This document shows, piece after piece, positions 7,627 through 62,700 of a stretch of 64,000 nucleotides of DNA (the stretch's first letter is position 1; each line of letters begins with the position of its first letter). The translations under genes and the position numbers were made by a program. The stretch comes from Branchiostoma floridae (lineage: Eukaryota; Chordata; Leptocardii; Amphioxiformes; Branchiostomatidae): NCBI RefSeq assembly GCF_000003815.2, contig NC_049980.1, forward strand, positions 27,468,762 to 27,532,761. Reading direction: 5' to 3'. Under the pieces are notes generated by a model, which was not told the DNA's origin, did not search any database, and saw nothing but the letters and a program-made list of their open reading frames with translations.

Positions 7627-9720
7627 ATGTTCCTGAGGATATTTCTCCTTCTGGTCCCGTTTTCGGGGCGGGGACGGGCGCAGGATGTCCCCGGGCAGGA
7701 GGTGTACTTCCCCGGCCGTCCGTGCCACGAGTTCCTGTGCGCTAACGAGGTGTGTGTGTCCAGGAGAGTCGTGTGTAACGGCGTCTCGGAGTGTGGAGAC
7801 AACTCGGACGAGCTCAACTGTCACGGTGAGTAGAAGTCTCATCTCTTAAATTAATGCATAATCTCCATGCAGATCCTACTATGGCATAAGATAATGCTCA
7901 AACTGGCCAAGCAGTGTAGTCAGCCAAGAGGTATATATTTGCCCCGGTAGCCAAACACACTCCAAGGCCGGCTTTACTCGACTCACTCCTCTGGCAGCTT
8001 TCGATACTATCTTATTTTACCGTAGCATCTGCTTGGAGATTATCAATGCATGCTGGGAATGATCTTATCTGTCCGTAACGTCTTCTAATGGGAGAAATTT
8101 GTCCACTTCTGTTTCTTTTCCATTTCGCGGTCTAGACTTAAATGTGATCTTAAGTCTTCACTCGGCGCGTCTCGACATCTTAATCCGAAGCAGACCTTAG
8201 CTGGAGTCCATAGCTGCCGACATTTGCAAAGTACTCTAACACAACACATGTCAGTAGCTGTCAGAGTGGACCTTTAAGTTGGCTAAACCGCAATGAAACG
8301 GATTTGACATTAACCAAATCATCGTTACAACAACACCAGAAATAATTGCATTCAACTTCATCATATTCGTAGCTGAATTGCATATAAAAGTATGTAAGAC
8401 GAGGATAACAAAGCTTAAGGATGTTTACAACATCATTTGATCAATTATCACCTCTACAAACTACGATCTAAAGTCCACTACAGAAATAGCTGCCTTATCT
8501 TAATTAAGAATCCCCGGAGCAAATTCTGGCACCAAAAATACGACAAAGTGGAATGAGACGAGACTAAAATAACAGCCAACCGAAATCTACTACTTCATTA
8601 AGATACCGCCCACTCTACCTGAAAGTCCACAGCTGCAATACACAGTCTTCCCTCCATATGCCCATGTCTAGTTACAACCGTGTGTACTAAGGTTACATGT
8701 ATCTCACATAGGGAATGAATGCTATTTTCAGACGTTTTAACGCTTTTTAAGTGATTGCTCTAGCATATCTGGAACAGTAACTTTTCCTTCCTAAACCATG
8801 GCATACAACTTAAGGTATTACTCATGTTAGAAGGAACTTTATCATTTTGTGTTGTTTAGGTACACCTGGCAACGGGAACACCCAGACCTGTAGGTACTCA
8901 GCACTTCGGACGTTTCTATTTTTTATGATGCATTAATCTGGGAGGTTGTGTGACTCAATTTTGAAACAGTGATGCATCAATGGTCAACTTGTTCTTGTCC
9001 ACAATCAACCTCTGTTGTCAGTAGTTGTAACCGCAGGCAAGGTAGAAATTACGGAGTTCGGATTGGGCGTGCACCGCCGGCGTTTTTTTTCTTTTCCCTA
9101 CATGTACTTATGAAAGGTATATTTCTAACGAGACTTTGAGACTTAATTTCTGTTATACTGAAACTGAAGTAGACAAATGTTATGAGGTAATAGTAATAAA
9201 AAGTAAGCTATTCGTCAGATATAAAATGAAACTAGCATATAATATTGATGATGAAAGTAACCAATAACCCGATGCAGTTTAAATCAATTCTGTAAACGTT
9301 TAATTTCAGACAAGTACAACTGTGTTATAGTCTTTAGCTACAACCCATTCGATCTCCGCAGCCTCTCGCTGTGCGGCGCACCAGTTCCTGTGCAGGGACA
9401 TGACGCAGTGCCTGTACCAGGGCTACAGGTGTGACGGGGAGGCCGACTGTAGGGACGGGTCAGACGAGGTCAACTGTCAGATTGGTGAGAGCCGACCCTT
9501 AGAAATGTGCGTGTTTGTGGTCTGTATGTATGTATGTATGTATGTGTTGGTGTGTCTGTTTTGCATATGTACAATCTCTCTCCCTGTCTCTGTTTCTCTA
9601 TCTGTCCGCATGTTTGTCCATTTGTTTGTCTGTCCGTCCTTCTGTCTCCCTCTGTCTCTCTGTATTTTTTTCTGTGTCTGTCTGTCTCTTTCTCTCTCTC
9701 TTCCCCCTGTGTATGTGAGT

Positions 9721-9761
<41 letters not shown>

Positions 9762-12700
9762 TGTGTGTGTGGGTGGGTGTGTGTGTGTGTGCGAGCGAGC
9801 GAGCGAGAGAGAGAGAGAGAGAGAGGGGGAGAGAGAGAGCGCGCGCGCGCGAGAGAGAGCGTTTGTGTATGTGTGTGTGTGTGTGTGTGTATGTGCTAGA
9901 AATAAACGAACCAAATTTCCGTTACTCTTGCAGGTCCCACAGGTTGCCTTCAGAACCAGCTGCGGTGCGGGAGCGGCGCATGCGTACCAGTGTCGTACCG
10001 CTGCGACAACATAGCGGACTGTGATGACGGTACCGACGAGTCCGGATGCTGTGAGTTTGGTGTTATGTTTCGTTTGGCTTGCAAATGCACGTTGTGGTCA
10101 ATTATTGGCGTTTTTTTTCAAAAATACATGTATGTTCATGTATAAAGCCGTCGGAAGTCAGAAACACGTATTTACTAACCGTTTGGTAACAAAGCTCAAC
10201 CTTCTGCCCACATCATCACGAGCAACACGTTCGCGGTAGACCGAATTAAAGGAGCCTTGTGGAAACCGATGAAAATCACTATCAAATGCTCTAAAGCATT
10301 CCCTGAAAACTCAGAAACTGCAGGTTTTAGATATATATTTTCTCTCCTTCCAGATCGCCCCGTCAACCCCCCTGAGCCGACCAGGGCCCCAGCCCCAGCT
10401 CCGACCCCAGGTACGACGGAAGGGCGCTGTAACGGTCACTCCAACACTGTCGACCAAAGGAACGGACACTGTTTGGTAAATCGAACTTTTATCTCTCCAC
10501 CGGCTTCTTTCATTTACATTCTTTCTGGAACCTCTAAATATTTCTATAGATTCATCAGCACTTCAGTCATGTATTATAGATGTGTACATTTGTAATATTT
10601 TTTTTAACGATTCCCTCATGACCTCAATAAAAAAACGGTTAACAGGCAAAGAAACAAACGAACAAACAAACAGATGAACATACAAACAGACAAACAAACT
10701 TCTCTTTTCAAATCACGACTTTTCTCCTGTCTTTTTGCCGTCTTAAGAATTCTCTTTGTTGTCAAAGATGTAGTGTTGTCGTGGCTAGGATCAGCTTCAT
10801 GTAATTACAGCTCAAATGTAACTTATTTCGGAGCAATTCTACAAGTTTCTATTCTTGATTGCTAAAACAATTTGGCTGTTCGCTGTCGCCCCCAGAACTG
10901 CCAGCACCACACGATGGGACAGCGGTGCGAGACCTGTATCCCAGGGTACACCGGTGACGCGACCCTGGGCACGCCGCACGCCTGCACGCCGGTCATCCAC
11001 GTCTGTCACTGCCACGGACACTCCGGACAATGCGACACCTCCGGGAACTGTCTGGTACGGACAACATGGTTAACTGTCGTCTATGACATTCTTCACGCTG
11101 GTAACATTAATCACTGTCCCAAAGGCAAGGTCAACAGTAGATATATTTATGCCGTACGAAAGGCCCAACTTATCGTTACGCCAATGTTTATTCCATTGAT
11201 GTAACGTTGGTGTTATGGCACAAAGAATTAGAAAAAAAAACGACTCTAGTCTAGACCTTCATTACATGTTACTTGCAACATCAATTACACATCAGTCATA
11301 CTTCAGTATTGTCCATTCATACTCTTGAAGTAAAACAGGAATGCCATAAATAACTCCAATCCAATTTCGACCAATCCAGAACTGCCAGCACAACACCGCC
11401 GGTTCCCGGTGCGAGCGGTGCGCGGAGGGATATTACGGTGATCCGAGGTACGGTAACCCAGACGACTGCAGGCCCCTCAGTCAGGGTCAGGGGCCAACAG
11501 GACAAGGTCAAACATCGCCGGGTCAGCAAGTTCAAGGTCAAACGGATCAAAACCAACCTGACCAAGGTCAAACAGGACAAAATCAGCCCGGTCAAACAAG
11601 TCAAGGTCAAGCAGGTCAAGGTCAGACAGGTGCAGGTCAACAGGAGGAGCTGCCGTACATAGTTGGAGAGCAGTGCAGATGCTACAACCACGCCACGAGA
11701 TGTGACCCGACAAGTTTCAAATGCTTGGTAGGTGATTGCATAACAACAGTTCTTTTAGCCTCCTTCACCGGCGTCTCTGGGGCCTTCGCGTAAGTATTTT
11801 GGGAGTGGGATGGATTTGCGATTTTTAGCCGGGAGTGGGGTCCCGTACACGCTTCCCGGTATATATTTATTTCTTTGGTGTTACTGAATAAACCATCCTT
11901 TGACTTTGTTCAACAAGTATGACGTGCAGTGACTTGTTGTACAGTAGTTGACGATACTAGTAATGATAACATTCACGATTTAACTTGATGTTTCATTTTA
12001 CTCGTACCCTAGAATTGGTTAACTTACCTTCCTCATCGATTCCACAGGACTGCCAGCACAACACGGAGGGTTTCTACTGCCACCGGTGCCAGCCCGGGTT
12101 CCGGGGGAACGCTCTGTACGGCACCCCGCACGACTGCCAGAGGGTCCCGCTGTACTCGGAAGGAGCGTCCCCAGGCACCACCCCTGCTCCGGCCACCACC
12201 CCAGCCCCCACCGTCCGCCCGCACTGCTACTGTCACGGGCACAGCGACAAGTGCGACGAGTCGGGACGCTGTTTGGTAAGATGTCACGATATTCTAAACT
12301 TAGTCAATACATAATGAAGGCTAACTTTTACCTACTACCTTGGTAAGATTGGTAAATTTTATGAGGCTAACATCACATTTCCACAAAGGGACCCAGCCGG
12401 GTAGTCTGGGGGAACGAAAGGTACGATATAAAAGACAATAACTTTTTGAAACACGGACCAAAAATAATTCAAAAGCATGCTTTGTGCATATCATTGGCAT
12501 AAACTTTATTTTTTCGTTTCTACAAACAGCTCGGCCGGGCCAAGGGTAGGAAATGTAACGTAGACCTACACTAGCGCTGAAACAACAACGACAAGAGACA
12601 ACGTCATCGGTTGCCCTTTCTTTTTACTTAACATCACCCCGGGAGACATATAAAAACATGTGTATCTTTCAGAGTTTGTAATCAGCAGATCTCCCTGCCT

Positions 12701-41473: not shown

Positions 41474-44400
41474 ATGGCGACTTTTGCAGAAAAACTACAA
41501 GGGTTGGAGTCCCGACTACAGACCTATGACCCAGAAACGGCCTTGGCAAGAACACTCATAGATGCGGTGGCTACTAAAGACTCGGAAATGACAGTGGAAG
41601 CGTTAAAATCTCTTGGCGATCACTACCTAGAAAATGGCAAAAGTACGAAGGTTATGGAAGAGTTCGCGAAGGCGGCAAGGATCTACAATGCGGCTCTCTT
41701 GCGATGTCCTGGGTGTCAAGATGTCGCCGATACGATACAGCATCGCATCCGATACACGGAGAAAATGTCGGGTAGCATATCGGCCAACCACAATGACAAT
41801 TTCAAACACAGGCCTGAAACAAAAGTGGAAGCTTTAGAGACTAATGCCGTCACCAACAATGTCGGAAGAATTGCTGACATTTGCCTACAACTAAAGGCGT
41901 CTTACAAGAAAGACGAAGGCGTCATAGACCCTATTGAAACTGAAAGCTCGTACACCAAAACATTTTTGAGAGCACTTGCCAATGGTGACCAGATACTAGA
42001 GGAAGCCTTGATTCAAGACATAGGGGATCTTTACCTCGATGAAGGAAGAGTCAGATCAGAGCTAACAATGTTGAACAAGGCAACCGCCATGTACGAGGCA
42101 GCCATGACGATGTGTATACAGGGGACAGATAGGTGGGAGACTCTGCAACACCGAGTCAACTATTCACATGAAGTTCGAGAGGCTGTCACAAATGACAAGG
42201 TACGTGGGCTCCTCTTAACTGCCATGCATGGTAACTTGTTTGTTGTGGCCGCAATTAAGCCGGTTTTGTGCTCACGCAGGTGTGGTCACAGCGGAGTGTC
42301 GGTTGTTTGGGTTGGACAGAATAACAAAAAAAAATCATGCCGGTTAGATCTTTGTCCGGGACAAAAGGAGACATTTGAGGATAGAGTTGTGTTCAAATTA
42401 TTTTGTGATTTTTTATTTGGGGGGTTTTATCACGGTAAAATGTCACCAGTGTACGGGAAGTGGTAACCCATTAAAGGCCTCTAGCTTCACGCGAGACAAA
42501 GGATGAGAACCTTGGCTCCGAATGTGGCACGGGTTTTGCAAATACTTCATTCCGGCTGAATTCGGTTTCAGTGTGAATGCCCTATTAGCCGTGCGTGTCG
42601 GAGAAAATAGTAGGGCCTTCAAACTGAAACCGAATCAGCAGGAATCAAGCAGAACGAGCCGGAACGAAGTATCTGCAAAATGCGTGCCACATTCGGGGCC
42701 ATTCGCAATTTGGGTGGGAATTCCAAATGGACCTTATATCCCCTTCACACGGGAAGGAATGAGCACAAATGCCGTCAGAATGAAAATTCTTTTCTATTTC
42801 TGTGAATTCGTAGTGTATTCTAGAAATTCTCACTGCATTCCAGATATTCTTTTGGCCACATTCTGGCTGGATTCCAAGTGGCTTGCCGTTTCGGTTCTCC
42901 ATCGAATGAGATAAGAATGTTTAGAATAATGTTAGAATGCCGTAGAATGCGGTCATACTGCAATTAGAATAGTTAGAATACATTTAGAATCCACTTTGAA
43001 TACCATTCGATATTTCTCCACTTCAAATGCACCTCGACAGTTTTTAACATGTCAAAAACTTTCTGGCCAGCCAAAAGAACGGGCACAATTAGCTGGAATG
43101 CAGTGAGAATTTTCTGGAACACACTACGAATTGCGAGGAATTGCCAGGAATAGAAAATAATTTTTATTCCGACGGCGTTCCGGCTCATTCTTGCTCTCGT
43201 GTGAAAGGGGCTTAAAATGTTACACACGTAGCGGTCACACTGCATAAATGTCCACGGTATATACGGAATATATCATAATGCGTATTGATGGCTGTTGTAT
43301 ATTGTTATTGTACACTATCTGTCTTTGCCCTTTGCCCTTTGGAAGTGCTTACATTCTACGGCATTGTTTTGTTTCGACAGAGAAAACGTAGTGAAACTAC
43401 TCTACCGGCTAACGGGGTGAAACAAACGATCACGGATGTTCTGTTTGGACCGGATGTCTCTCAACTTCCTGGTGACCCTGATACACTGAGGTGAGGTAAC
43501 AGAAACAGCTAGAAATAATAATTATATCTATCTATCTATGTATCTATCTATATCCATCTCTCTCTCTCTCTCAAATATAGTGTATTTGTATGGGTGGTGG
43601 ACATAATTTTCTAGTTCTATCTTTAACATAGTCCACCTACTGAAGATAAAACCATATATTCTGTTCTAGCTTGTTATTCAGTGTATATGTTATGTCTAAC
43701 TGTTTATGTGTGGGTCACAAGACGTACAATAGCTGCATGCGACCTACTTAGTGTATTGTACTGTTTGCAATCTTGAAAATCAATTAAAATCAGTTGAAAT
43801 CAAATCAAATCAAATCAAATAATCAAGTAGAGCTAACAATCGATATGAATCAACATTGTAGACCTAACCACAGTCATCCGGGACATTGGACTGTTAAATC
43901 CTGTTCATTTGTTCATTACCTACTACGTCATTAAATAAATATATTTAGGAGCGGAGCATTGATTGTGCACACAGACAAACTTTATAATAACATTGGAACC
44001 TTATTGTCATGGTTTATCCCTTGAGCGTTATATTCTTTTACAGTTTTTATCGACGCCATGTGTCTGAAGGCGACCGTGCGCTGCGACACGGGGAACTGGA
44101 CATCGCCGAGGAGGAGTTCGCGTCTGCACTGAAAGTCGTGAATGGTGAGAGGAAAAACTGTTTTTAAAGTGTTTTTTTCTAATATGTATCCCTCCATACC
44201 CAATATGTGGGACACACCTGTTTTGCCTGTTTGCTGATGTTTGCAATAAACCCAAAAGGTGTGGATGACCTAGGCTACTATTGAAAACTGCTATAATAGT
44301 AGACATGAAGTTTTGCATCTGTCTATGATAACCAATTACAACTCTTTTTTCAAATACTCCAGATGATATGGATATCTTACCTAGTTGCTATATTGATTTA

Positions 44401-46334
44401 TTTTGCATTATGTAATACTTTACTGAGATGTACGAAGTTTTAATGATGTACCGAATCCTTTAAGAACAGGTCCTCGGTTTAGTCCTTCCGGTACGTTCTG
44501 ATCGAACGGGCGGAAAAAGCTAGCCAGTGCAGCAAACGTTGTTCCACACTACTCATAGAAGATATACTTTTAAAGGTTTACTTCTGTCGATTGTTTCTCC
44601 CAAGACCTAGAATCAAAACAGTTCCGGCTTAAAGTTGAGGCTGAGTGTCTTCAGAAGCTGGGACACGTCTATCTGGAGAGAGGGAAGGTCACAAAGGCTG
44701 GGGGCGACTTCACGAAAGCCGCCGCTCTCTTCAATGCAGTCATGGCCAGGACGGAAGATAAGTATCAGAGAGAAAGGATTATGACTGTCTTACGAGACAC
44801 AGAAAGACTTTTTCTGTATCATACAGCTGGGGTTGACACGGTGCCAAGTAAGTATGACATAGATTTGCCCCATAAAAGGGCCATAAACGAAATGCGCGAA
44901 ACTATTTTCCAACAGTTCCAAGGTATGGATAAAGAAGACAACCCTTACAGATACGATAACGACCATCCTAACGCTAGAGAGGCAGAACTGGTAAGGGCTA
45001 ATGCAATACAGAATCTATGTAAGAAAATAACAGATGACAGAAATAACTTGGTTGAGTTGCTCCTTGTCGAATGTATGGAGAAAGTTGGGCCTCCGCCATG
45101 CCGGCATGCGTTCATTGGTCTCGGATCACAAGCCACGGAACTGGCGACGCCATACTCCGACCTCGAATTCGCGATTTTGATAGAAGAAGGGAAAGATTCC
45201 GATCAAAATAAGCAATATTTTCGAACCCTCACACACTACTTACACATGAAAGTCATCAACCTTGGAGAAACTGTAGTGCCAGCTATGGCTATAACATCTC
45301 TAAATGACTTTTGTTCTGAAGACCCTAGTCGCGACTGGTTCTACGATCGTAACACACCTCGCGGTTTCGCCTTTGACGGGTTCATGCCATGGGCGAGCAA
45401 AACGCCTCTTGGCAGGGGCCAAACGAAGACCAAGCCACCTCTTGAACTCATTCAGACCCCCAGTAGAATGGCCAGTCTCCAAAACGCCGACCTGTCTCTG
45501 TCAGACGATTACAACTTGTCATGGGTGCTGCAGCACGTTTGCTTCATGGCAGGTGACAGAGCTTTAGTTGACGACTATATCGTCAGGGTGACCAAGCAAC
45601 AGTGTCACTCAGAAACGAAAAATACAGTGTCTGTAACAGAAAACATTCGAAACGTCAAAAAGCCAGAGTTGACCGCACAACTCCTAAACGTAAAGAAGGA
45701 AGTCTACCGCCTGCCCACCCTTTCTATCCAGAACATCGCGTCCTTCTTCGGGGTAAAGTCAGGCAGTATATGGGACATGATTGCCGAATTGAAAACCAAA
45801 GGTCACATCAGTATGGAGAACGCCCACCACCTGAAGGTATTGGTAGCTATTTCAGCAGAACTGAGGCTTAGGGCATACTTGGCTGCTGACAGTCAACGCG
45901 AGAGCGTGTCGACTCTTTCTCAGATTGTACCAGAATCCGGCAGTGCCATAACTTCAAACTCTACAATAGAGTCAGTCTTGTACCTTCCAAACAGAGCAAT
46001 ACTGTACAGGTATTATTACACGGCCTACCCTCTTCAGAAGCTCGTGTTGAAGGCTGACCAACAGCAGACATTCTTCCAATGTGAGAACATTCTGTTTGAC
46101 TCATCGCCATACGTGAACGGAATGATGCACATGAACGTGTGCGATTTCAAATCTGCTCAGGAGGACTTTACAAAAGCATTAGGTGATGCTGACAAGTCCA
46201 ACCCTACAAAACGGATGGCAGTACTTGCGGCCCTTGCTGAAGTCTCAGGGTATCTCGGAGATCAAAACAAAGCCAAAAAGTACTGTCAGCAAGGGTTGGA
46301 CATTATGGGTAAATGGGACATTATCAAAGCATAA
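41474..46334 (+). CDS. TPR and nucleotidyltransferase-like protein, N-terminal part of a frameshifted locus
   Basis: Exons: 41474-42199, 43381-43490, 44044-44144 and 44605-46334; 2667 nt, 888 residues plus TAA. The start AGCATGGCG gives MATFAEKLQGLESRL. Three TPR-like helical hairpins share a pattern LGDHYLENGKSTK..EF.KAARIYNAA (near residues 40-80, 190-230 and 320-360). Residues about 480-510 contain GLGSQATELATPYSDLEFAI: a GS turn and a D-x-E pair (D498, E500) that fit the N-terminal nucleotidyltransferase domain of GlnD/DUF294 proteins. A helical segment (SLSDDYNLSWVLQHVCFMAG...) and more TPR-like helices follow. No signal peptide or membrane segment, so it is probably intracellular. The frame ends at 46334 while the TPR array continues in another frame, so this is probably not the natural C-terminus. 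Substrate and biological role are unknown. Confidence 0.8.
42520..42693. repeat. Fold-back repeat in TPR/NTase intron 1 (first)
   Basis: GAATGTGGCACGGGTTTTGC is inverted as GCAAAATGCGTGCCACATTC about 140 bp later, with further pairing (ACTTCATTCCGGCT against AGCCGGAACGAAGT). It would form a long hairpin. No coding role. Confidence 0.7.
42738..43214. mobile_element. Fold-back element in TPR/NTase intron 1 (second)
   Basis: CCCCTTCACACGGGAAGGAA at the left is inverted as TTCTTGCTCTCGTGTGAAAG and GGGCTT at the right. Inner segments also pair (CACTGCATTCCAG against CTGGAATGCAGTG). Typical of MITEs with long inverted repeats. Confidence 0.7.
43524..43573. repeat. (ATCT)n and (CT)n microsatellite
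   Basis: Tetranucleotide tract followed by a dinucleotide tract in TPR/NTase intron 2. Confidence 0.85.
43580..43821 (+). repeat. Possible non-LTR retroelement 3' tail with (AAATC)n
   Basis: AT-rich sequence ends in five or so AAATC units (43797-43820). The pentanucleotide tail is suggestive of a LINE 3' end. No protein is seen. Confidence 0.35.
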
Positions 46335-48612
46335 GAACTTTGGCATTTTTCTGACTTTAATGGGCCTAGCATATGTAGAGCAGGGAAAGTTCAAAGAGGC
46401 AATTAAGTGCTATGAAGAGGCAATGGAGACATTAGATGTTAGTAATGATGATGATGATGAGAACAAAGCCGTACTGTATCACAATCTGGGTGTGGCATGG
46501 GAGCGGCTAGGTCATTACAAGAAAGCTATTGGCTTTTACGAACATGCGCACGAGATCAACGTCATCCTGTATGGACAAAGTGCTGCTAATCCTGGTGTGG
46601 CCTTGACATTGAATAATCTGGGCGGTTGTTGGGCCGAATTGGGTGACGACAACAAAGCTATCGAATTCTGCGAAAAGGCTCTGAACATGTACAAGGGGGC
46701 CTACGGATATGATGCGGCCCATCCTGAAATCGCCATGACCCTCGCCAATCTAGGTGGCTCTTATCTGCGACTGGAAGATTACAAGAATGCCATCGACTTC
46801 TTTGAACATAGCCTCAAGATGAGTAAACGTATCTATGGGAAAGACACACCGCATCCAGTGACTGCCGGCATTCTGTGCAGTCTAGGCTCTTGCTGGAGGG
46901 CAACTGGACAACACAAAAAGACTTTCCTCTTCTTAGAAAAAGCCCTTAGAATGAACAAAACTCTATACGGACACAACGCAGCCCATCCCGATATCGCCAC
47001 GATACTTGTTAACATCGGTACGACTTGGCGTATGGAAGGTGATCAGATGAAAGCAATGGGCTTCATTAAGGCGGCACTGAAGATGTACCAAACTTTATAC
47101 GGCAAAGACGCAGAGCACCCAGATATGGCTAATATTCTTAAGTCTCTGGGGGACTGTTTAGATAGACTTGGTGACCACAAGGAAGCAGTTACCATTTTCC
47201 GAAAGAGCCTAAAGATGATGAGGTTCCTCTATGGTGAAGATGCAGCACATCCTGATATTGCAATGACCCTCAACAGCTTGGGTAGCTCTTTCAGTTCAAT
47301 GGGTGATTATGCCGCATCAGTGGCTGTTTACAAACAGGCTGTGGATATGTACCGAATCATCTATGGCAAAGACCCTAAACCAGACATGTCCAGGGTACTC
47401 TTAAATTTTGGAAAAGCCTTGTGTGATTTGGGCAACAACAGTGGAGCTATAGGCGTCTTTGACGAAGCACTTGAGATACTGCACCGTACATATGGTCAGC
47501 AGGCAGTGAACGGGGACATTGCACAGATTCTCAGCTCACTTGGCGTGGCTTGGAATGCCGTGGGCGATTATAGGAAAGCAGTTGGTTTCTTTGAAAAGAC
47601 GCTCAACATGAATGTAACTTTGCACGTGCAAGATGCAACGCACCCAGATATCGTCATGTCTCTAAACAACTTGGGAAGCACCCATGACTCCTTGGGCGAA
47701 AATCACAAAGCTATAGCCTTCTACGAGCAAGCGCTGGATATGAGCAAACGTATACACGGACCTGACGCTGATCACGAAGACATTGCCTGGTCACTCAGCA
47801 ATATCGGGCATTCCTACGGCGATCTTTACGACGAGAAAGCCATACGGTTCTACGAGCAAGCACTGGAGATGCGGCAACGCATGCATGGAAGGGAGTCAGC
47901 ACATCCCGATATTGCAGAATCACTTCACAACCTTGGGCTAACCTGGAAAGACTTTGGAGATGAAGAGAAAGCTGTTTACTACATCGAACAAGCACTGGCA
48001 ATAAATAGACGAATGTATGAAAACAACTTGCCTTGCCCATACATTGTCAGCATACTAAACACACTCGGGGTATTGTTGAGTAGTCTCGGTGACAAGACTA
48101 GAGCCATAGATCTTTTTCAAGAATCGTTAGCTATTGGCAAACACATGTATGGGGACGGGACAGCACATTTAGACGTGGTAGAGGCAATGGACAATCTGGG
48201 TAATACCTGGAAGGACCTTGGAGATTACAAACAGGCAGTCGACTACTACGACCTGGGTCTGAACATGAAGAAACGTCTCTACGGACACGATGGCGCTGAT
48301 CTTCACATTATCTCTTCGCTCAACAGTCTGGGTATCTGTTGGAGTTCACTCAAGGATCACCACAAAGCATTGACATTTTTTAAAGAAGCGCTGGACATGA
48401 GCAGACGTGTATACGGAGAAGACGCCGTGCATCCCCTCATCGCCTTGTGTCTCCGAAACGTTAGCAAAAGTTGGCACAACTTCGGCAACCAGAGGAAGTC
48501 TACAAAATACTACCTTAAGGCAGTAGCGATGGAGATGAAACTTAGAGACGAACACACAGACATCGAAACCGTCCAGTCCGAACCAAGCGGTGACCTCAAG
48601 ATCATCATCTAG
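46335..48612 (+). CDS. TPR array, C-terminal part of the TPR/NTase locus in a shifted frame
   Basis: This frame is open from 46183 to the TAG at 48612; homology to TPRs becomes clear from about 46325 (HKNFGIFLTLMGLAYVEQGK). It holds 16-17 tandem units of 44 residues with the pattern HPDIA..LNNLG..W..LGD..KAI.FYEQAL.M...YG.DA, the long TPR type of kinesin light chain and nephrocystin-3-like proteins. It overlaps the upstream frame by about 150 nt without an intron or good splice site. The simplest view is one protein of about 1,640 residues with a frameshift near 46300-46334 from sequencing error, a recent mutation or, less likely, recoding. As a separate gene its first downstream ATG would be 46360, cutting into the first TPR. 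The frame is otherwise unbroken for 2.2 kb, so selection acts or acted recently. Confidence 0.8.
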
Positions 48613-49990
48613 CTTCCAAACTGTAATTTAAGCAGTCGTTCACAACCCCACACAGAGCCATATGTTAAGATTTGGATTGGCGAACTTTGTTACATTAATG
48701 CTTTGCATGCATGTCTGTATTCGCTTTTTACATTCTGAATCTGTTTATTAAGTATATGGTATTTACTTTTGTAATATACTTTGTTGATGGCGTCGCGAAA
48801 ATAAGCTGTAAGCTTGCAATTGAGTACGTCGTCATTGTGCCCCGTATCTAAATGTTGCAATAAAAAAACTCATAGCCTGTCTCTGATCTTGAAGTAACTC
48901 TGAGCTCACGAAAACGAACCTCTGAATAAAGGCTTCCCATCTGACCGAGCTTTGTTTTAGCATTCCCCCTTCTCAACTTCTTTATAGAAATTGAAACACC
49001 GCGAAAACAGTATCCGTCTACTGCAAAATAAACCCAACATGAAGGTAAGGGAATTTAAAGTACTCAAAACTCAGCGAGTAATGCTACTGGGGTGTGAAGT
49101 GTATCCAGACTGGGTACACTTCACAAAGAGATTTTTGTACAGTAGGTGCAAGCTGCGTAAGACCAGACTGCAAGGTTTGATCCACTCACATCTGGATGGA
49201 CCCACACTTTCTTGACATGTGTGGTGGGTTCTTTTATGTGCGTTGACTGAGCTAGAATGTAGTAACTAGAAATTGGTACAATACAACCGGGTAGGTATTG
49301 AAAATTTCTAGATTTGTCAAAGCCACTGCTATAATCCATCATTATATAATGCGTTTTTGTACATATGTATCACAACCAAGCATCAAATATTGACACAAGT
49401 TATACATCTAAATCATATGCCTAATTGAAATAAGATAGATAATTCTCAATTATTTACATGTCTGAACTATCAACAGCATGTGTCAAAGATAATAAGCTTA
49501 TAAATATTATGTTAGAAATTTGTTGCTGCCATTTTTGAAAACCTTAAACATAGATGCCTTTACATAAAATGTACTAGCATTTTTTTATATCTTCTGTTAC
49601 ATTAAATACAATATTGGATACTTCGAACAATCTAAATAAGATGATAACGTCATAACGTTACACGTAGTGTTGAGATTATTCTCACTTTTAAAAGCATAAA
49701 AACATAACTGGTCAGAAGTGCCTCACCCTAAATGTAATTATTAAGTAGTAATACAATCTTTCTACTACAATATGAATCATGAACTATCTGTGTACTGAAC
49801 TGGGGTCCTACATGAATTGTTACAAATAAGATGCGTTTTAAGATTATAAACATGTAGATGTAAAACAATATGAATCATGAAAAATCTGTGTGCTCAGATG
49901 CTGAAGTCCTACGCAAAGCGTTACAAACTAGAAGCATTTTAAAATCATAAACATTAGTGGTTAGAATTGCGTTGCATAACAAATATCAAA
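48613..49990. other. Convergent intergenic region
   Basis: 3' UTRs of the TPR/NTase gene (+) and the SLC27A-like gene (-). AT-rich, with a partial direct repeat around 49750-49930 (ACAATATGAATCATGAA twice). No gene seen. Confidence 0.6.
48859..48864 (+). promoter_or_regulatory. Poly(A) signal of the TPR/NTase gene
   Basis: AATAAA about 250 bp after the TAG at 48612, in AT-rich DNA and before the convergent SLC27A-like gene. Confidence 0.6.
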
Positions 49991-61130: not shown

Positions 61131-62150
61131 CTTAGAGGTGCTTGTGGTACCGTTTGTTTGCATTCTAAATTCTAGAGGAGGCCCGATATTAACAAAGAAA
61201 CCATTGGATTTATCACAGATTTCCTTTTATTCTCGGTAGTTTAATTACCAATTTTATTTGGACCAGGTGTTTTACTTTTGTCACGATTTCGCATGTAAGA
61301 TCTATTTTTGTTCTCGTCAAGTGGTGCGTCGGGGCGCCGTTTATTGACTATTCAACCTGAAATAAATCAATAAAAAAGAACTAAACTACTTGTATAAATG
61401 GCTGACTGAATTAAATAAGCTGGGATCAATTTGATACAGCTTTTATTTGTAGCTATAACAGAAAAAAAGAAGTTTACTACAATACCTCTGACAGGCATAC
61501 GGTATAGAGATCCTACCATGGTGTACTGAGTAATACGCTCCACAGGTCTGGGGATCCTGACAACTAATAAGTTACAACTACACACAGTACTGCATTTAAG
61601 TTCGCGGAGATTTAATTTCGCGGCAGAAGGAAAATGGACTTTTCGCGGTGGTTTTAATTTCGCGGTAGCACCATGCCCTGTAGTCTATTACTGCAAAATT
61701 TGCTCAGTTTAGCAGTTTAGGTGGCACGCAGAAGGATTTTAGTTGTTGTGTCACATTGGTGGTATCAGGAGAAATCTGGGGTCAAAGGTGAGGTTTCTTT
61801 CATAGAGCGGAGATTCCTCGGAGTTTGAGGTGGTTATCCTCTGTTTTCTTTTAGTTTTTACAAAGATGACCCTTGTGGCTGTCTGGTGGAGAATTTTTGT
61901 TAAGATTGAAATTGGGGTTAGCACTTTTCTGAAGCCTTGTTTTAGTGTATTTTATAATGCTTTCCTATGGAGAGGTCCAACTGTAATGTCAGCCCTATAA
62001 CCCGGTCCCTTCTGGAATCTGTCCCAGTAAAGAGGATGCGTGACGACAGAGGGGGAGAACATTCAAGTCAGGCCAAGCCACGGGACCGGAAATCAGAAGA
62101 TAGTTGTGTACACCAGGCCAAACAGCACCACAAACCGACCCGTAGAAAAG
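61131..62150. other. Upstream region of the last LDLa gene
   Basis: Nothing coding is supported. The tract near 61600-61670 has three TTTCGCGG-like motifs (TTCGCGGAGATTTAATTTCG...), a local repeat of unknown meaning. Confidence 0.4.
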
Positions 62151-62361
62151 ATGCACGAGTCCTCTGTAGGAACAGTTATCCTGTGTGTATGGACGGTTCT
62201 ACTCACCGACGCTGCGTGCCCGGATACAGCGTTCTCCTGTAATGACGGGTTCTGTATAGACCGGTCCCTGCGCTGTAACGGAGTCACCAACTGTTTTGAT
62301 TCTTCAGACGAGCTGGACTGTCCCGGCGGGGGCGGTAACTCAGGGAACACTGCTCCCTCAC
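62151..62361 (+). CDS. Gene E: signal peptide and LDLa exon, 5' end of a further array-type gene
   Basis: ATG 62151 opens MHESSVGTVILCVWTVLLTD, a signal peptide, followed by an LDLa module CPDTAFSCNDGFCIDRSLRC..CFDSSDELDC and a Gly-rich spacer. A GTGAGT donor at 62362 ends the exon in phase 1, as in the first exons of genes B and C. The LDLa is closest by eye to gene C LDLa1 (shared NGFCID/DGFCID core). No second exon is evident before 64000, so the gene runs out of the window or is a remnant. Confidence 0.7.
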
Positions 62362-62700
62362 GTGAGTACAGGCTTCAAGGTCACCATTATCAGATTCCAT
62401 CGGACAGCAAACACGAAGGGGGTGCACTGTGGGTGGTGGGTGGTGTAACCACGTCATTTTTACAAGTGACAACCTGGGGGTATACTATTACTAACACTTG
62501 TCCTTTTGGCAACTGCAACGATGTCAGGTTTAAAACCAGGTATGTAGTTACCTCAAATTCAAGGATTATACTTTTCATCGTTGTGGTTTGACGACGATGT
62601 CACCGCACACGTGTACGTACATGTTATAGTACATGTTCAAGTATCATAGTGACTTTGAGCTCCCGTAGCAAGTTTCGTGGACTCGAAGGGCTCTTGTTTT

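Follow-up and report, generated by a model that had tools for sequence, protein, structure and literature searches.

The 64,000-nucleotide stretch of the Branchiostoma floridae genome analysed here (contig NC_049980.1; hereafter the window) carries, at positions 41474-48612 of its plus strand, a gene in which a DUF294-type nucleotidyltransferase stands between tetratricopeptide repeat (TPR)-like units and a long C-terminal TPR array. The gene is one of a large, partly clustered family occupying at least 81 places in the window's own genome (a lower bound), and across the paralogues compared the enzyme is constrained whereas the TPR binding surface is variable. The best explanation, to which we give about an even chance of being right, is that these genes form an animal family of GlnE/DrrA (DUF294)-type protein nucleotidylyltransferases, guided by their TPRs and endowed with diversifying recognition. 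We infer catalysis, adenosine monophosphate (AMP) as what is donated, a protein as acceptor and an immune role, the last plausibly one in innate immunity. The parts of the gene, whose exon borders were set from splice signals and reading frame, are as follows:

41474..42199, plus strand: exon 1, with start codon and TPR-like units 1 and 2 (spliced residues 1-242); open frame, GT donor
43381..43490, plus strand: exon 2; AG acceptor, GT donor, frame
44044..44144, plus strand: exon 3; AG acceptor, GT donor, frame
44605..46334, plus strand: exon 4, the enzyme frame, with third TPR-like unit, nucleotidyltransferase, helical domain, first TPRs and stop TAA at 46332-46334
44985..45275, plus strand: Pfam DUF294 match (30.2 bits, cut-off 21)
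45123..45167, plus strand: G-X11-D-X-E motif (G486 at 45123-45125, D498 at 45159-45161, E500 at 45165-45167), from the sequence
45375..45377, plus strand: third acidic residue D570 (RGFAFDG), from the sequence and row conservation
45510..46061, plus strand: helical DUF294_C-like domain (model residues 302-485), from the predicted model and structural alignment
46332..46334, plus strand: frame break; enzyme-frame stop, the array resuming in the next frame from 46333
46333..48612, plus strand: TPR array of about 17 units of 44 residues, to the stop (TPR_12 E 1.6e-109; TPR_10 in 16 stretches)
48859..48864, plus strand: AATAAA, possible poly(A) signal

The enzyme frame matches Pfam DUF294 (E 4.6e-07), which, together with a match to a Neochlamydia protein (E 9e-41 over 97% of the length), indicates that the domain is real and not a chance resemblance. 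The GlnD/DUF294-type motif GS...SDLEF on which the initial annotation had relied lies at 45123-45170, and the acidic triad is complete with D570, the residue whose presence that annotation had left to be confirmed: G486, D498, E500 and D570 are invariant in all 12 rows of our alignment (A3), and the equivalents of G486, S487, D498, E500 and D570 are retained in 38 of the 38 paralogues read. The fold agrees with this assignment. Foldseek found just four solved chains at E <= 0.001, every one a protein adenylyltransferase; in structural comparison the GlnE halves stand more than 10 Z units clear of the first unrelated fold; and the nearest enzyme by both sequence profile and fold is DrrA, which acts in the forward direction. 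Of the two activities suggested earlier, a nucleotide second messenger or a protein modification, it is the latter that these neighbours support. The PDB profile search was confined to the enzyme region, a wider profile being swamped by TPR matches, and its single-sequence controls were weak: one Neochlamydia protein retrieved DrrA only (E 0.033 and 0.047), one Parachlamydia protein matched 12 entries without DrrA among them, and a generic rhizobial DUF294 protein had no DrrA in the best 60 of its 152 rows. The helical domain of the model (pLDDT, the predicted local confidence, 77-93 in blocks 311-330 and 361-430 and 36-53 in blocks 331-360 and 431-460) aligns with the helical domains of DrrA and GlnE, and the fold match spans it. 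Pfam DUF294_C was not reached at E <= 1 by the window protein; its cut-off of 22.5 was passed by L014, L015 and L016, with L002 (22.1) and L009 (18.5) below it.

Searches for other enzyme and domain classes were negative. No Mab-21, OAS or CD-NTase model (Pfam, PADLOC) matched the enzyme frame, nor does any of the three appear among the listed fold rows, absence from a ranked list not excluding such a fold; the NCBIfam MntA model scored 18.3 bits, short of its cut-off of 60. At E <= 10 the frames of exons 1 and 4 contain neither a Fic nor a NACHT/NB-ARC domain, and neither is among the array-frame families listed (25 of 48); NACHT/NB-ARC is likewise absent from the matches listed for six paralogue open reading frames. 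The same two exon frames gave no F-box match at that threshold. The enzyme frame holds one nucleotidyltransferase only, with no HD or ACT domain in that frame or among the best 25 of 48 array-frame families. SidL, considered as a model, was set aside because its fold differs (PMC13431035). A bacterial promoter scan of the gene start returned nothing, a result without bearing on an animal gene.

The repeats on either side of the enzyme were largely as first described. The spliced first part of the gene, up to the enzyme-frame stop, encodes 888 residues and includes the TPR-like helices proposed to precede the nucleotidyltransferase: there are three units, the third of which (residues 303-361) matches exon 1 with 41% identity (E 1.4e-05), the TPR_12 match of exon 1 itself being weak (19.2 bits, below the Pfam cut-off of 30.1). 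Across the 760 codons of the C-terminal array the repeats recur every 44 residues, and the resulting total of approximately 17 units accords well with the 16-17 further TPRs counted originally.

The size of the family, which the initial annotation had proposed to count, proved considerable. A search of the whole genome (513,431,437 bases in 431 contigs) returned 83 rows, corresponding to 81 distinct places on 20 contigs once two split C1 rows had been merged and with the window's own place included; this number is a lower bound because 81 of 318 candidates were scored. The other rows are 41-55% identical, save two short ones at 37%, and internal stops occur in three of the 81 places. By our grouping, 42 places fall into 14 clusters (within 150 kb), the largest of which, on C7, has eight members. 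Among the 80 other places, 38 were read, 20 with their flanks and 18 for the enzyme stretch only (one of the 38, L056, has stops). In every flanked paralogue a single open frame covers both enzyme and TPR array and continues for 336 to 966 residues after the module, and the arrays range from about 8 to 22 units; all six paralogues scanned against Pfam combine DUF294 above cut-off with TPRs. The nearest paralogue of the window copy among those read is 50% identical at best.

Different parts of these proteins have diverged to very different extents. TPR positions 2, 5, 9, 12 and 13 are those taken here, following the TPR literature, to face the ligand. In seven close paralogues (set 1), the ratio of nonsynonymous to synonymous substitution (dN/dS) was 0.25 for the enzyme, 0.45 for the array, 0.18 for the TPR core and 0.93 for these five positions; the corresponding values in five other paralogues (set 2) were 0.19, 0.34, 0.18 and 1.18. 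Of 2000 random draws of five positions, only 3 in set 1 and 0 in set 2 matched this divergence. The test on set 1 was not blind, because the five positions were named after the per-position table of the same seven genes had been seen, and those of set 2 were not inspected beforehand; nor are the two sets fully independent, since members of both neighbour each other in the tree. Three non-overlapping pairs of paralogues gave a dN/dS of 1.02 at the five positions, with a bootstrap interval of 0.62-1.81, for which reason positive selection at the ligand-facing positions is suggested and not shown. Silent-only differences per codon in set 1 were alike in enzyme (0.116) and array (0.113), and the synonymous divergence (dS) of the five positions in set 2 (0.666) lay below that of the rest (0.806), though anchor spacing in set 2 is irregular. 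The window copy is outside both sets because it has no close paralogue among those read.

Relatives of the module were found in bacteria. Four of 72,556 plasmid records match at E <= 1, and the only strong match is that of Neochlamydia sp. S13, one protein of which is 27.8% identical to the exon-4 frame over 97% (E 9e-41). Thirteen TPR or DUF294 proteins were taken from this plasmid. Of these, eleven have their match in the nucleotidyltransferase portion of the window gene (one of them, RS10005, is cut short), the best with 28% identity over 582 residues (E 5e-46), with RS10010 matching the later part only and RS10335 (117 residues) the TPRs only. We note that RS10005 and RS10010 adjoin (L002 4372-8152) and match the first and later parts of the module, and may thus be one split gene. 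A seeded motif scan of 84,980 bacterial and archaeal species genomes, of a kind that misses some relatives, yielded 93 stretches with two seed motifs and, among these, 15 relatives at 14 loci in ten genomes, labelled as three chlamydial, three Rickettsia(ceae), one Amoebophilaceae, one Cytophagales and two unplaced Alphaproteobacteria. Seven of the ten bear the names of groups that live inside cells. DUF294 was above cut-off in all seven relatives of one scan (three of them Neochlamydia proteins) and in five of six in another, where L013 fell just short (L012 was in both scans); an F-box was present in two of the three Neochlamydia proteins, the third being judged from the best 25 of 28 families. 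At one of the loci (L011 2-8230), in a bin labelled Rickettsia typhi, open frames exceed 2,700 residues, and one of them contains portions of two module copies; the label of this bin looks doubtful. A viral source was considered and rejected: no viral contig was found to encode a relative in two seeded scans, no phage record matched at E <= 1 and no BFVD fold match reached E <= 0.001.

Two trees bear on descent, both omitting L017, L020 and the truncated RS10005. In the first, with a wide outgroup, the window gene could not be placed. The second is unrooted, leaves out the outgroup and L019 (long branches) and four of the ten Neochlamydia rows, and includes 19 of the 38 paralogues read. In it a branch with support 100/100 sets off all 20 amphioxus-like rows, which group with the Neochlamydia rows (96/86) and are separate from the Parachlamydia, alphaproteobacterial and Bacteroidota rows. 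Forcing the Chlamydiae to stay together lowers the likelihood by 3.6 log units, a cost too small for the approximately unbiased test to reject the grouping (p 0.11). Given the unplaced gene in the first tree and the rooting and Chlamydiae grouping in the second, we do not take either as proof of the direction of transfer. Exchange between eukaryotes and intracellular bacteria, in one direction or the other, would be the natural reading of these sequence relationships.

Among the closest described systems is NEX2, a family of 50 Neochlamydia proteins that combine an F-box, sometimes an OTU domain, DUF294 and TPRs, and in which type III secretion signals were present in what was tested (PMC4209131). 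NEX2 resembles the window gene in its mid-protein DUF294 followed by a C-terminal TPR array and in its lineage-specific expansion (PMC4209131), and the kinship is collinear over some 560 residues. It differs in that an N-terminal F-box, sometimes with OTU, usually stands (PMC4209131) where the window gene has three TPR-like units, and the window gene has introns and sits in an animal genome. The proposal that the system was undescribed therefore holds only in part, the architecture having been reported in that publication. Animal homologues are not mentioned in the excerpt of the NEX2 publication (PMC4209131), and no report of an animal DUF294-TPR family was recognised among the open-licence papers listed, outside which most subscription papers lie.

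GlnE is not known to have a TPR array, and the HD and ACT domains that are hallmarks of GlnD were not found in the enzyme frame. Bacterial CBS-DUF294-DUF294_C proteins share the catalytic and helical domains (234 aligned columns in one rhizobial example); they are far less similar and have CBS and cyclic-nucleotide-type sensor regions where the window gene has TPRs. GlnE is built of two nucleotidyltransferase halves and a regulatory domain (PMC12663964), against one nucleotidyltransferase in the window enzyme, and the Legionella Rab AMPylase DrrA (SidM) carries a guanine nucleotide exchange factor and a lipid-binding domain in place of TPRs (PMC12409994). FICD (HYPE), an animal AMPylase whose TPRs help recruit the target (PMC8097203), is a working analogue of the family, although it has an unrelated Fic fold and one or two TPRs, resides in the endoplasmic reticulum and is a single gene in most metazoans.

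In the proposed mechanism, the ligand-facing side of the TPR superhelix would bind a protein target, and the nucleotidyltransferase, in which D498, E500 and D570 would coordinate the metals, would move AMP or another nucleoside monophosphate (NMP) to a hydroxyl of that target, much as DrrA acts on Rab1 and as FICD is guided by TPRs despite its unrelated fold (PMC8097203, PMC12409994). With an enzyme that stays constant between copies and a binding surface and repeat number that vary, the protein tagged would differ from copy to copy. Innate defense against intracellular microbes, or control of the host proteins that such microbes attack, would be the likeliest setting; a constant enzyme paired with a variable surface in a large, partly clustered family resembles the recognition systems of host-microbe conflict. 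The conflict-type setting raised by the initial annotation is supported by the large, partly clustered family, its fast-changing recognition surface and its relatives in intracellular bacteria.

Several observations weigh against this reading. The dN/dS at the ligand-facing positions is about 1 and not significantly above it, and relaxed constraint on exposed TPR positions may also produce such values. In set 1, position 5 varies little (0.256) and helix-B positions 17, 18, 21, 22, 24 and 31 vary as well, so that variation is not confined to the ligand side; dS (Nei-Gojobori) rises in the same set from 0.234 in the enzyme to 0.313 in the array and 0.477 at the five positions, and exchange or misalignment between repeats may therefore add to the signal. 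NEX2 is under purifying selection (dN/dS 0.29), and only two of its members are predicted to be secreted (PMC4209131). Model confidence is low around the third aspartate (block means 37-66, residues 221-280), and the window sequence alone matches no PDB chain. The N-terminal half of GlnE removes AMP, and the direction of the reaction is thus not readable from the fold. Lastly, the window copy, which sits in neither selection set, has a broken frame.

This break calls for a correction to the initial annotation, as the reading is not continuous: the enzyme frame closes at the stop at 46332-46334, the array continues one frame over from 46333 after a one-base break, and the same junction is open in 20 of the 20 paralogues fetched with flanks. 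An intron was examined as the cause (donors 46240-46335, acceptors to 46480, lengths 30-250 bases) and rejected, as frame-restoring GT-AG pairs lose part of a TPR or give odd residues, none being judged convincing. The window copy may consequently be a pseudogene or misassembled. That it is a pseudogene, the finding being functionless here within a functional family, comes only a little short of an even chance; the stop, the frame change and the uninterrupted junction of the flanked paralogues speak for it, yet a single lesion was seen and no other damage is apparent in the triad or in the 760 codons of the array, which makes an assembly error or a recent allele as likely as a pseudogene. Stops were also observed inside the matched enzyme stretch of three other family members (C7:18019919, C11:15702991 and C204:208951 of G000), suggesting that some copies are decaying or misassembled.

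As to what the family does, an ordinary protein-modifying role in the cell, without part in defense and with TPR variation reflecting either duplicated genes that acquired different host partners or relaxed constraint, would fit the dN/dS of the variable positions, but sits poorly with the 81 or more places, the clustering of 42 of these 81, the spread of array lengths in the 20 flanked copies and the kinship with host-facing families of intracellular bacteria, and we regard it as unlikely. The nucleotidyltransferase superfamily includes second-messenger enzymes, and cGAS-like receptors also pair a constant enzyme with a variable sensor; TPRs that sense a ligand, coupled to synthesis of a nucleotide, cyclic or linear, or to the tagging of a metabolite, would follow the same plan. 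We consider this improbable and do not favor the second-messenger option raised originally, given that the closest folds are all protein adenylyltransferases, with a wide Z-score gap between the GlnE halves and the first unrelated fold, and that the enzyme frame matches no CD-NTase, Mab-21 or OAS model. A reverse enzyme that strips AMP or NMP from proteins as the GlnE N-terminal half does, undoing the tagging by microbial effectors, is about as improbable, the closest enzyme by profile and fold being the forward-acting DrrA.

Two further features of the window deserve mention. Intron 1 contains inverted repeats at 42513-42701 and 42746-43201 (45 nt at 89% and 64 nt at 77% complementarity) that resemble small mobile elements, and LDL-receptor class A domains occur in the open frames at 9400-10014 and 62040-62591.

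Returning to TPR-guided protein nucleotidylylation, a more far-reaching version of it can be offered only tentatively, as it is considerably more likely to be wrong than right: an innate recognition system of amphioxus, more than 80 genes strong, in which the diversifying TPR superhelix of each receptor would read a foreign or manipulated protein and covalent nucleotidylylation would inactivate or mark it. It would form a third class of animal AMPylases beside Fic and SelO, and horizontal transfer would account for the core that it shares with effector families of chlamydiae, Rickettsiaceae and Amoebophilaceae living inside cells. In excerpts from two reviews of AMPylation, the enzymes listed for animals or eukaryotes are FICD and SelO, and those listed with a nucleotidyltransferase fold are the bacterial GS-ATase and DrrA (PMC8097203, PMC12409994). 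Animal protein modification would thus gain an enzyme class from a large DrrA/GlnE-fold family in the chordate lineage whose triad is intact and whose binding surface varies, and such a family would make testable the idea that animals and intracellular bacteria wield one tagging enzyme against each other.

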